Source: Candidatus Methanomethylophilaceae archaeon (GTDB lineage: Archaea; Thermoplasmatota; Thermoplasmata; Methanomassiliicoccales; Methanomethylophilaceae). Taken from it: a DNA stretch of 56,173 nt. Each line of letters begins with the position of its first letter. The stretch's first letter is position 1. The stretch spans positions 1-56,173 of the forward strand of contig CALULN010000001.1 of the NCBI GenBank assembly GCA_944321505.1, read 5' to 3'. A program made the position numbers and the translations under genes. Below, piece by piece: positions 51,956 through 56,173 of this stretch. The notes under the pieces were generated by a model. It searched no databases. It had not been told where the DNA came from and was given only the letters and a program-made list of their open reading frames with translations.

Positions 51956-54571
51956 ATGTCGCAGTACGATGTCGCAGCCGCCGAGAAGCGCTGGGAGCAG
52001 ATGTGGAAGGATAAGGAGATCTACCGTTTCGATCCGAAGTCCGACAAGCCCGTATTCAGCATCGACAACCCTCCCCGCTACACGTCCGGGTCGCTGCACC
52101 TTGGACACGCCACCGGCTATTCGCTGATCGACTTCGCCGCCCGCTACAAGAGGATGCAGGGGTACAACGTGTTCTTCCCCCTGTGCTTCGATGTGAACGG
52201 GACACCCATCGAGGTGAAGGTGGAGAAGAAGCACGGCATCAACAAGCTGGATACCCCCAGGGCGGAGTACCGCAAGTACTGCGAGGAATATGCGGAATCC
52301 TTCATCGCCCAGATGACCCACCACTTCGAGATCCTGGGAGAGTCCATGGACCCCTCGATATATTATCAGACCAACGCACCCTACTACCGCAGGGTCACGC
52401 AGATGACGCTGGTGGATCTGTTCAAGAGGGGATTGCTATACAAGGCCAACTTCCCCGTGAACTGGTGCCCCTCGTGCATGACCGCCCTGGCGGACGCCGA
52501 GGTAGAGTACCGCGACAACGTCAACAAGCTCAACTACATCGTCTTCAAGGTGAAGGGCAGCGATGAGCAGATGATCATCGCCACCTCCCGTCCGGAGCTA
52601 CTGAGCACCTGCCAGAGCGTGGCCGTCCACCCTGATGACAAGTCCAAGACACACCTGGTCGGAAAGACCCTTATCACGCCTCTCTACAACAAGGAGGTCC
52701 CGGTCATCGCCGACCCCAAGGTCAAGCTGGACTACGGCACCGGAAACGTGATGATCTGCACCATCGGGGACAAAGACGATTTGCAGTGGTGTATGCAGTA
52801 CAAGTATCCCCTGCTCAAGGCCATCGACGAGATGGGCAAGATGACCGCCATCACCGGCAAGTACGAGGGCATGAAGGTCCTGGAGGCCAGGGAAGCGATC
52901 ATACAGGATCTGAAGGACGCCGGTCTGCTGATCAACCAGGAGGACAACCCCCAGCAGCTGTCCATATGCTGGAGATGCCACAACCCCGTGGAGTACCTGC
53001 AGGTGCCCCAGTGGTTCCTTCGCTCCATCGATTTTAAGGATAAGATTCTGGAGAGAGCCAATGAGATCGAGTGGCACCCGGAATTTATGAAGACTCGCTT
53101 GGTGGACTGGACCAACTCTCTCGAGTGGGACTGGGTCATCTCCAGGCAGAGGATCTTCGCTACCCCCATACCCATCTGGGAGTGCGAGGACTGCGGCCAT
53201 GCCGTTTGTGCCACGGAGGACATGTGCTATTGCGACCCCGTGTATGACAAAGCGCCGGTGGACTGCTGCCCCAAGTGCGGCGGCAAGATGGTCGGTTGCA
53301 CCGATGTGTGCGACACTTGGGTCGACTCGTCTATCTCATCTCTGTACAACACCTTCTACGGACGCGACGAGGAACTGCACAAGAAGCTCTTCCCCATGTC
53401 CCTGAGGCCCCAGTCCCACGATATCATCCGTACCTGGGCTTTCTATTCGATACTCAGGGCTGAACAGATCGAACAAAAGATCCCCTGGCACGACATCATG
53501 ATCCACGGATTCATCATGGCTCCGGACGGGACCCCCATGCACTCGTCCATCGGAAATGTCATCGACCCCATACCGATTCTGGAGGAGTACGGTGCGGATG
53601 CTCTGAGGTACTACGCCGCCACGTGTTCCTTGGGAATCGATCACGCCTTCCGCGAGAAGGACGTCATCCGCGGTCGCAAGCTGCTGACCAAGGTGTACAA
53701 CCTGGGTCAGTTCGCCAAGAGGTACATCACCGAGAAGCCCGGGGAGATGCCTGAGGAGCTGCATGTCTCCGACAGGTGGATCCTTACTCAGTTCAGTCGT
53801 GCGGTGAAATACGCGGAGCATTACCTAGACGCATACCTTTTTGATAAGGCGATGCGTGTGGTGGAGGGATTCATCTGGCACGAGCTGGCGGACCACTACG
53901 TGGAGATGGTCAAGGGCCGCGACGACCCCGCTGTGAAGTACACTTTGTACACCGTCCTGCTGGGCGCCATCAAGATGCTGGCACCTTTCATGCCTCATGT
54001 CACCGAGGAGGTATACCAAGGGGTCTTCGCCCAGTTCGAGAGTGTGGACTCCATCCACGTGACGGCATGGCCGGAGGCGGTGCTGGATGACGAGGAGGCG
54101 GTGTCCGAGGGCGAGGTCCTCAAGGAGGTCATCGCTTCCGTGCGTTCGTGGAAGGCGGAGAAGAAGATTCCGCTGAACGCATCCATCAAGCTGATGGAGA
54201 TCATCGGTCCTACCGCATCAAGACTGGAGCCCGCCGGTTCCGATATCATCGGAACGTTGAAGGTAGAGGAATTGAAGATGCTGGCGGATGCGGAGCTCAC
54301 CCGCAACGTGGTGGGCATCAAGCCGGTTCATGCCAAGCTGGGTCCTCTGTTCAAGGCCAAGGCGAAGGCTGTGGTTGCCGCGCTGGCGGCAATGGATGTG
54401 GCGGATGCCGCGGCTCAGCTGGAGTCCAAGGGCAAGATCGTCCTGGATGTGGAGGGCGAGAGCGTTGAGCTGCAGGCGTATCTGGTGAGTGTCGATACGG
54501 AGCTCATGCTTGACGGCAGAGCGGTGGAGACGCTGCAGGTCAACGACCTGTTGATCGCCATAGAGCTGTGA
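51956..54571 (+). CDS. valS: valyl-tRNA synthetase, with divergent KMSKS region
   Basis: 871 residues. NPPRYTSGSLHLGHATGY contains the HIGH motif as HLGH (48-51), and GYNVFFPLCFDVNGTPIEVKVEK is typical of ValRS. The editing (CP1) domain includes TSRPELLSTCQSVAVHP. Zinc knuckles (CEDCGH, CPKCGG) and a C-terminal coiled region follow. The KMSKS site reads PMHSS (527-531) before IGN, without either lysine. Codons contain more T-ending forms than those of the neighbours. A hairpin overlaps the stop. Archaeal-type valine charging is otherwise expected. Confidence 0.92.
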   Translation: MSQYDVAAAEKRWEQMWKDKEIYRFDPKSDKPVFSIDNPPRYTSGSLHLGHATGYSLIDFAARYKRMQGYNVFFPLCFDVNGTPIEVKVEKKHGINKLDTPRAEYRKYCEEYAESFIAQMTHHFEILGESMDPSIYYQTNAPYYRRVTQMTLVDLFKRGLLYKANFPVNWCPSCMTALADAEVEYRDNVNKLNYIVFKVKGSDEQMIIATSRPELLSTCQSVAVHPDDKSKTHLVGKTLITPLYNKEVPVIADPKVKLDYGTGNVMICTIGDKDDLQWCMQYKYPLLKAIDEMGKMTAITGKYEGMKVLEAREAIIQDLKDAGLLINQEDNPQQLSICWRCHNPVEYLQVPQWFLRSIDFKDKILERANEIEWHPEFMKTRLVDWTNSLEWDWVISRQRIFATPIPIWECEDCGHAVCATEDMCYCDPVYDKAPVDCCPKCGGKMVGCTDVCDTWVDSSISSLYNTFYGRDEELHKKLFPMSLRPQSHDIIRTWAFYSILRAEQIEQKIPWHDIMIHGFIMAPDGTPMHSSIGNVIDPIPILEEYGADALRYYAATCSLGIDHAFREKDVIRGRKLLTKVYNLGQFAKRYITEKPGEMPEELHVSDRWILTQFSRAVKYAEHYLDAYLFDKAMRVVEGFIWHELADHYVEMVKGRDDPAVKYTLYTVLLGAIKMLAPFMPHVTEEVYQGVFAQFESVDSIHVTAWPEAVLDDEEAVSEGEVLKEVIASVRSWKAEKKIPLNASIKLMEIIGPTASRLEPAGSDIIGTLKVEELKMLADAELTRNVVGIKPVHAKLGPLFKAKAKAVVAALAAMDVADAAAQLESKGKIVLDVEGESVELQAYLVSVDTELMLDGRAVETLQVNDLLIAIEL

Positions 54572-54585
54572 GGGGAGACCCTCAC
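54568..54585 (+). terminator. terminator of valS
   Basis: GTGAGGG (54568-54574) pairs perfectly with CCCTCAC (54579-54585) around GAGA; the stop codon lies in the stem. TTCCAACACCTTTT follows. Confidence 0.7.
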
Positions 54586-54789
54586 AATTCCAACACCTTT
54601 TGTGATCTGAGACCATCCGTCGGCAAGATACCGGTGATGTGCCAGATAATAATAATTCGCTTATGACGGTCATATTGAGGACGTGTCCCCATATGGAAAC
54701 AATCAATCTGTTACATCGGCTAACCCGTATCCATGGCCGCTCCCAACGCCAGACCTCCTGCCAGTAACATCTACTAGGTCAATCATGCA
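54586..54789. other. non-coding stretch before the HEPN gene
   Basis: AT-richer than the core regions. It holds short palindromes (TGACGGTCA, CCATATGG) and a 14-codon frame from ATG 54733 to TAG 54775-54777 whose status is doubtful. AATAATAATT near 54649 may be a promoter. No clear gene. Confidence 0.4.
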
Positions 54790-55215
54790 TTGGAAATCAT
54801 AAAGCCCCGGCTTCAGGACTTCGTGATTCGTAGCATGGAGGATACCTTCGGCAGCAGGTGGTGGGCCGATTGTGTGGTCGCTCGTAATTTAGTCCTGAAC
54901 GCCAGCAATTATCTACCGACCGGAGACGCGTCAGAAGCTGCCATCCGTTCATACATGGACATCACCCTCTGTATGAACATCATCTCGCAATATAGGCTGG
55001 TCAACGACAGCAGTGTCAGGAGCGCCAATAATCCTCTCCAGGCGGTCCGCCGCGTGAGGAACTTCCAGAGTCACAACGGCCGTACCGATATTACCGACTA
55101 CGAGGCCGCCGGCATGGTCATACAGGTGATAGCCCTCGACGAGTATATGTCCCTGGGCTGTGCGGACGGGCTCTGGGAGATTATGAGGTTCTGGGGCCTG
55201 TCGGCGTACAGGTGA
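54790..55215 (+). CDS. HEPN-domain protein (Swt1-like), candidate RNase next to CRISPR
   Basis: 141 residues from TTG 54790; the in-frame stop TAG at 54775 limits extension. The C-terminal half contains VRRVRNFQSHNG, a perfect R-x4-H (R90, N91, H95) HEPN RNase motif. The N-terminal LQDFVIRSMEDTFGSRWWADCV recalls Swt1-like HEPN proteins with a WW pair. HEPN proteins are RNases in toxin-antitoxin, abortive infection and CRISPR systems. The gene overlaps the next as GTGA. Codon use is less GC-biased, fitting mobile or defence DNA. No catalytic partner such as MNT is obvious. Confidence 0.7.
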   Translation: MEIIKPRLQDFVIRSMEDTFGSRWWADCVVARNLVLNASNYLPTGDASEAAIRSYMDITLCMNIISQYRLVNDSSVRSANNPLQAVRRVRNFQSHNGRTDITDYEAAGMVIQVIALDEYMSLGCADGLWEIMRFWGLSAYR

Positions 55216-55619
55216 ACCATTCCGTCGAGTGGAAGGACGTCACGATGACAAAAACAGCAGGGAAGGAGGGTTCCGCTTCGGCGTATGTGCCATCCGAGAA
55301 CGGTTCTCAGACAGGGGAGGTTCGTGTCGTCGGAGAGACTGGGTCTTGCAATGACGACAGAACTAGCGTATCTGCCATGTGCATAGATACCTGCGAGAGC
55401 TTCCGCCGTCAGCAGCAAGGGGATGCATGTGACCTTCCACCGCAGGGGGTCTCGGTGGGGGAGGGCAGGATGGACATCACGCCGATACTCACAGAGGATC
55501 CGGAGAAGAACATGACGGTGCAGAGGTCCACCCGTTACGGGTGCTCATTTGACAACGATGTATTCGCGGATGTGCCGGAGGAGTTGTCGGTGTTCAGGTT
55601 TGCGGGAGAGGCTCTGTGA
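55212..55619 (+). CDS. unknown protein translationally coupled to the HEPN gene
   Basis: 135 residues from GTG 55212 (overlapping the HEPN stop) or 124 from ATG 55245, which has GGAAGGA upstream. Hydrophilic, with five cysteines and no recognisable domain; an acidic C-terminal end (FDNDVFADVPEELSVF) could form a helix or beta element. Position suggests an antitoxin or partner of the HEPN protein, which is only inference. It is the last gene before the CRISPR array. Confidence 0.5.
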   Translation: MNHSVEWKDVTMTKTAGKEGSASAYVPSENGSQTGEVRVVGETGSCNDDRTSVSAMCIDTCESFRRQQQGDACDLPPQGVSVGEGRMDITPILTEDPEKNMTVQRSTRYGCSFDNDVFADVPEELSVFRFAGEAL

Positions 55620-55723
55620 GTGTAATCTGAATTCGTTTGTAATTACATGTTGCCTCAATATTGTATGAGAGGCCTTCAAGCCATGGAGAGCATCGTTAAT
55701 TGGTTGAAATAGATAATCTTGAC

Positions 55724-56173
55724 ATGTTAACCCCGCGTATGCGGGGAATATGGGGGTTCAGGCAGTGCCTGTTTTGAACTTGTGGAATCATCCCCGCACA
55801 CGCAAGGAGCATATCCTGGGGCTGATTATCGTGGCGCTCAACGGAGGATTGCCCTCGCGGATGCGGGGAGCACAACGCTCCCTGTACCGCTGTGCTTATG
55901 GGTTTGGGATCACCCCCGCGTATGCGGGGAGCACTCCGTGTAGTAGGTCGCCGAGTCCGAGTAGTAGGGATCACCCCCGCGTATGCGGGGAGCACCAGGC
56001 GTGGGTGCCTGTTTCGATGCCTTCGGAGGGATCACCCCCGCGTATGCGGGGAGCACGGGCGCCCGTCGGAGGTTGTGATGCCTCACTTCGGATCACCCCC
56101 GCGTATGCGGGGAGCACTGTTGCAACGTTCACCATAGAGCAAAACCCCAAGGATCATCCTCGCGTATGCGGGG
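55724..56173 (-). CRISPR. type I-E-like CRISPR array, leader-distal end, incomplete at the right edge
   Basis: Eight repeats of 28 bases (last cut at 56173) start at 55724, 55785, 55846, 55907, 55968, 56029, 56090 and 56151, in an exact 61-base period with 33-base spacers. The consensus begins GGATCACCCCCGCG and ends GCGGGGAGCAC, a type I-E form. Repeats from 55907 to 56117 are identical; those at 55846, 55785 and 55724 are progressively degenerate, and the last also varies. Degeneracy at the left means the leader lies to the right. On the minus strand the repeat ends GTGATCC, the expected crRNA 5' handle, so transcription runs leftward. No cas gene is in the window. Confidence 0.95.

Follow-up and report, generated by a model that had tools for sequence, protein, structure and literature searches.

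A HEPN_Swt1 reading frame beside an archaeal type I-E CRISPR array as the probable relic of a helicase gene from a putative five-gene defence cassette

The HEPN_Swt1 reading frame and its family

Does a short reading frame with a HEPN motif beside a CRISPR array encode a defence protein in its own right, or is it part of something larger? The question was raised by an ORF at positions 54790..55215 of the window, the whole 56,173 nt stretch of a Candidatus Methanomethylophilaceae contig that was analysed (all window features given below lie on the + strand). The ORF comprises 141 codons from a TTG start, before which a plausible ribosome-binding stretch can be read by eye, and a first-pass annotation had taken it for a HEPN protein with a complete RNFQSH motif and a Swt1-like N-terminus. 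Both were recovered. The motif, of the form R-x4-H, lies at 55057..55074 (residues 90–95), and a single Pfam family, HEPN_Swt1, matched residues 1–106 (profile positions 3–100 of 115) with an E-value of 1.6e-5 and a score of 25.6 bits, below the cut-off of 27.5. The R-x4-H motif by itself is weak evidence for HEPN; it arose in 8.7 % of 20,000 shuffles of the residue composition of the ORF. PADLOC added a weak match to PDC-M34B (E 0.0018). NCBIfam matches to Rrp4 and PknI on this ORF and the next (ORF2, below) fell far under cut-off and were set aside as chance. The GC content of the ORF (55.6 %) is lower than that of the window (62.6 %), as had been remarked, but only mildly so; that of the neighbouring valS gene is 58.0 %.

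Profile searching, the check proposed for this ORF in the first-pass annotation, returned a HEPN match not only in Pfam but also by comparison of profiles. The intact homologue in an archaeon of the same genus (G094) scored 27.8 bits against HEPN_Swt1, above the cut-off, whilst the copies on contig 21 of the window's own genome (26.5 bits) and in G051 (21.8 bits) fell below it, and the helicase of G070 gave no HEPN_Swt1 match in Pfam at E 0.01. A HEPN profile of five aligned rows (the window, these three homologues and G070) matched the N-termini of two BrxL-fusion proteins in hhalign at 96.7 % (E 3.2e-10), both of them strong HEPN_Swt1 members (Pfam E 2.7e-20 and 5.1e-21). Of the five rows, only that of G070 has lost the R and H of the motif, which the window, G094 (L012), contig 21 and G051 all retain; the loss of R90 and H95 from homologues, which had been named as a result that would count against a HEPN protein, was thus confined to one of the four aligned homologues. 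The AlphaFold2 model of the ORF is all-helical with a mean pLDDT of only 50.7, and a PDB fold search with this low-confidence model gave no match at E <= 0.001; the model of the 931-aa relative, made with no alignment supplied, was too poor to use (mean pLDDT 36.8). A profile search of the sequences of solved structures in the PDB with the HEPN domain returned 0 matches. Judged by its sequence profile, the ORF belongs to the HEPN family.

Three lesions relative to an intact gene

Comparison of the locus in related genomes, likewise proposed in the first-pass annotation, showed the ORF to be the front end, cut short, of a gene for a 931-aa helicase. Among 102 genomes searched in the window's family, four contained a match to the ORF, and outside the window every match was part of a frame of 817–976 codons. 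The counterpart in G094 (region L012 on G094:C3) is the N-terminus of an intact protein of 931 aa, encoded at L012:5944-8739, in which HEPN_Swt1 is followed by an SF1 helicase of Upf1/MkoA-like type. The stub in the window shares 91–94 % amino acid identity with the N-terminal part of this protein. In BLAST alignments, window positions 54508–55427 matched G094 colinearly with 93.7 % identity over 921 columns, and positions 55404–55623 matched with 89.7 % identity over 223 columns, 5.9 kb further on.

Three lesions separate the stub from the intact gene. The original start of the HEPN-helicase gene, at 54733..54777, begins with an ATG and runs for 14 codons, aligned codon for codon with G094, up to an in-frame TAG; this early stop replaces the fifteenth codon from the ATG at 54733 and is absent from the G094 gene, and the stub ORF opens at an internal TTG. 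A one-base frameshift at 55187..55191, visible as a gap in the alignment to G094, creates the last residues and the stop codon of the stub ORF. Finally, 5,940 bp of G094 sequence are missing at a deletion junction at 55404..55408, marked by the 5-bp microhomology CGCCG, up to which the flanks match G094 at 28 of 29 bases on the left and 36 of 37 on the right. Relative to G094, the deletion comprises the remainder of the helicase gene, two CARF-wHTH genes, an Hsp70 gene and most of a GrpE-like gene, leaving the helicase protein with approximately residues 1–225 of 931 and the GrpE-like protein with its last quarter. The junction is bridged by ORF2 (55212..55619; 135 aa), which overlaps the end of the stub ORF and joins the linker of the helicase gene (approximately residues 1–65) in-frame to the GrpE-like C-terminus. 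Its two parts gave separate matches about 6 kb apart in G094, and Pfam assigned it no family. What had been described as a gene directly before the array is instead an ORF fragment, with the chimeric ORF2 and about 515 bp in between.

We consider it highly probable from these comparisons that the ORF is an inactivated N-terminal relic of a HEPN_Swt1–SF1 helicase gene that once headed a cassette of five genes with a putative role in defence. The stop, the frameshift and the 5.94-kb microhomology deletion are read directly from the assembly, a draft of 31 contigs with 95.1 % completeness that is their sole source; inactivation and loss of function are the step beyond. The deletion would have inactivated the cassette in the slot next to valS, and because of the lesions the remaining HEPN fragment most likely does nothing. 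Running counter to this, the stub is open for 141 codons, has kept R-x4-H and displays no decay beyond the three lesions. Of the readings offered in the first-pass annotation, a stowaway in a defence island fits best. Neither an independent RNase toxin nor an abortive-infection gene agrees with the stub of a 931-aa helicase gene that has lost its remainder along with three whole neighbours and most of a fourth.

A related alternative is that, once the helicase had been lost, the stub was retained as a HEPN RNase standing alone, either an orphan toxin or a small abortive-infection gene. The near-complete coverage of the HEPN profile, the retained motif and the plausible ribosome-binding stretch before the TTG are all in keeping with this, as is a dN below dS in the stub (0.017 and 0.064 over 150 codons compared with G094; NG86, stop codons left out). 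With so few substitutions, however, the ratio is low in power, and the comparison includes the functional lineage; the same calculation for valS gave a dN of 0.063 and a dS of 0.549 over 871 codons. For the 64 codons past the frameshift the values were 0.086 and 0.096, which would fit either a variable linker or relaxed constraint. Retention as an RNase is further opposed by the make-up of the ORF, which came about through a stop codon and a frameshift, ends in a C-terminus that arose by chance and uses an internal start, and by its presence in one genome only, the other homologues in a single-protein search being parts of long ORFs. No antitoxin of the HEPN-MNT type (nucleotidyltransferase) adjoins the stub, its neighbour being the chimeric ORF2 without a Pfam family. 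We regard retention as very improbable.

It is very improbable that the relic is an artefact, with an intact cassette on the chromosome that was collapsed in the draft. Such an error is conceivable in an assembly of 31 contigs, with this contig breaking off in a repeat array 0.7 kb further on, but there are three separate lesions, both flanks are 6–10 % diverged from G094, so that nothing has been borrowed from G094, and the module-type Hsp70 occurs only once in the window genome, on contig 21.

The early TAG also had to be weighed as a pyrrolysine codon, in which case the stub would keep its original start. Relatives in the same family do encode PylD, which was found over cut-off in 11 of the 31 genomes searched, but no PylS exceeded the cut-off in the window genome and PylD did so in none of six genomes of its genus; the TAG was therefore taken as a stop. 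Since recoding would also leave the frameshift and the deletion unexplained, it is largely refuted, with a negligible residual chance. Elsewhere in the family of proteins, the HEPN-helicase gene of G070 has an in-frame TAG (L017:10187-10189) past which clear homology continues in the same frame; G051, of the same genus as G070, encodes PylD, so pyrrolysine read-through is possible in the G070 helicase.

The probable relic carries a lesson for annotation: what its motif marks as a HEPN gene, next to a CRISPR array, can be a remnant left by a stop codon, a frameshift and a deletion, and its status was revealed only by comparison with a close relative.

The chromosomal slot shared with CRISPR loci

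On its left, the stub is bordered by an 871-aa ORF at 51956..54571, which we take from its translation to be valS (valyl-tRNA synthetase); over 2,616 nt it shares 86.7 % identity with the valS that precedes the intact cassette in G094. On its right, the end of a CRISPR array occupies 55731..56173 and runs off the contig. The earlier assignment of this array to type I-E was confirmed: the repeat recurs 13 times at the end of contig 13, beside cas3, cse1, cse2, cas7, cas5, cas6e and cas1e. The array continues there beside the I-E cas genes, and the window therefore holds its leader-distal end. The first three repeats (55731–55873) are degenerate, consistent with an old leader-distal end.

Adjacency to the array is what speaks for a role of the stub in the type I-E system next to it, as an accessory or effector with a HEPN domain. 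The stub, however, sits by the leader-distal end of the array and not by its cas operon. Its intact homologue in G094 has II-A and I-C genes as neighbours, and the flanking ORFs scanned on contig 21 and in G051 included no cas gene, so that consistent linkage to I-E cas genes is absent across the three intact loci. A part in I-E immunity is accordingly a vanishingly small prospect, and the first-pass view that the HEPN ORF is independent of the I-E effector holds, as does that of its HEPN/Swt1 kinship.

In G094, the intact cassette shares the corresponding slot (L013/L014, G094:C3:88001-127000) with I-C cas genes and with a II-A system that has Cas9, Cas1 and Csn2. The valS side of the window and the amidohydrolase/DEAD-helicase/hem side of contig 13 represent the two sides of this one G094 region. 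As part of the same favoured explanation as the relic, and with the same high probability, the proximity of stub and array would reflect a shared defence slot, extending from valS to the amidohydrolase/DEAD-helicase/hem genes, and not a role in I-E immunity. Because the G094 slot has I-C and II-A and the window genome I-E, CRISPR types I-E, I-C and II-A appear to have been exchanged in one chromosomal slot. The island DNA is far more alike between the window and G094 than valS is, which suggests recent exchange between lineages, presumably followed by decay in the lineage of the window. The last 64 bp of valS in G094 are duplicated imperfectly beyond the inserted I-C genes (L013:13669-13731, compared with L013:7021-7084), as would result from integration of an element at the 3' end of valS. 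The duplicate was considered as the trace of a window-like donor, an idea that was dropped as the two G094 copies resemble the window to about the same degree (87.5 % and 85.9 %).

The intact cassette and its relatives

The relic leads to an intact cassette in Methanomassiliicoccales in which a putative RNase-helicase is accompanied by CARF regulators and by an Hsp70/GrpE pair of its own. The genes run in G094 as HEPN-helicase (+), CARF-wHTH A (+), CARF-wHTH B (−), convergent with A, Hsp70 (+) and a zinc-ribbon/coiled-coil GrpE-like gene (+). On contig 21 (L016), the window's own genome has a further locus, intact and of identical order with all strands reversed. G051 (L015) shares the order and orientations of G094, but its helicase is followed by an additional 170-aa ORF to which Pfam assigned no family. 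The helicase matched Pfam AAA_11 (E 1.4e-14) and AAA_12 (E 3.8e-14), and its helicase half matched PADLOC MkoA (E 1.3e-33; profile positions 592–1086 of 1112). The CARF-wHTH proteins matched HFX_2341_N, CARF_Card1 and HTH families in Pfam, with Csa3_N in addition for CARF-wHTH A, and PADLOC CARF3 at E 1.6e-47 and 1.1e-67; the Hsp70 matched Pfam HSP70 at E 1.2e-37. Pfam GrpE was matched above its cut-off of 25.8 bits in G051 (27.2) and below it on contig 21 (23.7), with no GrpE match listed up to E 0.1 for the G094 protein. The contig-21 GrpE-like frame runs on into an M48 peptidase (a 1028-aa ORF, L016:3891-6977), the two being separate genes in G051, by either gene fusion or frameshift.

The full cassette was present in three of 147 genomes of the order (G094, G051 and the window's own genome), identically ordered in all three loci, a sample that covers two genera. 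A profile of HEPN plus linker matched in 27 of the 147, full-length only in G094, contig 21 of the window's genome, G051 and G070; the other matches besides the relic were partial, mostly to HEPN-less helicases and some to HEPN-BrxL proteins. Across 389 genomes of the phylum, 13 contained a match, all in the window's family, and a plasmid tblastn search with the intact HEPN part gave no match. Cassette-type Hsp70 at E 1e-60 or better was restricted to three of the 147 genomes and was not found in G070. The CARF B protein was found in 12 of the 147 at 1e-12, and CARF relatives therefore also occur outside the cassette.

By analogy with known systems, the intact cassette is a putative defence module. 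Its Upf1-like helicase would engage foreign RNA or single-stranded DNA and the HEPN domain of the same protein is predicted to cut RNA, whilst the Hsp70/GrpE pair may remodel or restrain the helicase complex and the CARF-wHTH pair may regulate the operon in response to a nucleotide ligand. Searched with one Cas10 model (Csm1, TIGR02578), the three cassette genomes, G000 (the window's own), G094 and G051, gave no match over cut-off; a type III CRISPR source of cOA was thus not found in them, and the CARF ligand, if any, probably comes from another source. As a small, testable model, the cassette may help to show how RNA-targeting defence might be controlled by chaperones and nucleotide sensors.

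The closest overall likeness is to CoCoNuTs of types II and III, which share with the cassette an Upf1-like SF1 helicase, HEPN RNases, Hsp70 homologues, coiled coils and CARF proteins (eLife 2024, PMC11090510). As set out in the relevant parts of that study, CoCoNuTs are defined by an McrB GTPase (CnuB) with CnuC, are nearly absent in archaea and encode HEPN as a separate protein, CnuE, whereas the HEPN_Swt1 of the cassette is fused to the AAA_11/AAA_12 helicase. No McrB or McrC family was detected in nine cassette proteins (G094 and contig 21) or in 10 further neighbouring ORFs scanned; on its left, the G051 locus begins close to a contig end. Our best reading is that the relic is probably the dead remnant of a CoCoNuT-like, RNA-targeting defence cassette without McrBC. 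More tentatively, and with somewhat less than even confidence, the intact cassette could be an archaeal defence system in its own right that has no name as yet, a counterpart to CoCoNuTs without McrB whose helicase-coupled RNase is under the control of a chaperone machine; the window would then preserve a fossil of one such cassette beside a CRISPR array.

Other known systems resemble single parts of the cassette. HEPN domains have been described in multiple independent fusions to helicases, and in one of these, MTES_1575, a Swt1-like HEPN is combined with an SF-I helicase (Anantharaman et al. 2013, PMC3710099). Like the cassette, these Abi2/Swt1 HEPN-SF-I helicase fusions have a Swt1-like HEPN (HEPN_Swt1, PF18731) with R-x4-H; MTES_1575, as presented there, also has transglutaminase, Vsr and wHTH domains, whereas in the cassette CARF-wHTH, Hsp70 and GrpE-like genes follow, and the window copy is broken. 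An N-terminal HEPN on a defence ATPase, presumed to be a backup RNase, also occurs in the BREX-related HEPN-DUF499 fusions (PMC12839542), but the ATPase of the cassette is an SF1 helicase, and no methyltransferase partner was found among the scanned genes. GAP1-N2 conflict systems have their own Hsp70 and GrpE in a defence-type operon, as the cassette does; their neighbourhoods are GTPase-centred and reported mainly in actinobacteria and firmicutes, with no HEPN-helicase or CARF pair in the descriptions given of them (PMC7159879). The likeness to Mokosh is confined to the helicase half, over the part of the MkoA profile noted above. Mokosh systems include a kinase or PLD partner, and neither was detected in the cassette by Pfam or PADLOC. 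The portions of the open-access literature covered by our search contained no description of this gene combination, although this does not prove that none exists. As a broken piece of a known kind of part, the HEPN-helicase fusion, the relic is ordinary in itself. The gene combination from which it stems is uncommon, and the intact cassette is a modestly interesting archaeal variant, undescribed in the literature searched.

Two further groups of proteins were encountered in these searches. HEPN_Swt1 with R-x4-H was observed fused to the N-terminus of BrxL in L040, L042 and L044 (G088:C4, G015:C4 and G101:C2, respectively) and on G098:C8. Pfam identified BrxL_N and BrxL_ATPase in L042 and L044, L042 matched PADLOC BrxL at E 3.9e-216, and the L040 translation looks identical to that of L042; the passages of the BREX survey that discuss HEPN make no mention of such a fusion (PMC12839542). 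Related SF1 helicases without HEPN (L030-L037, in frames of about 420–760 aa) turn up here and there across the order and may represent the stock from which the HEPN fusion arose.
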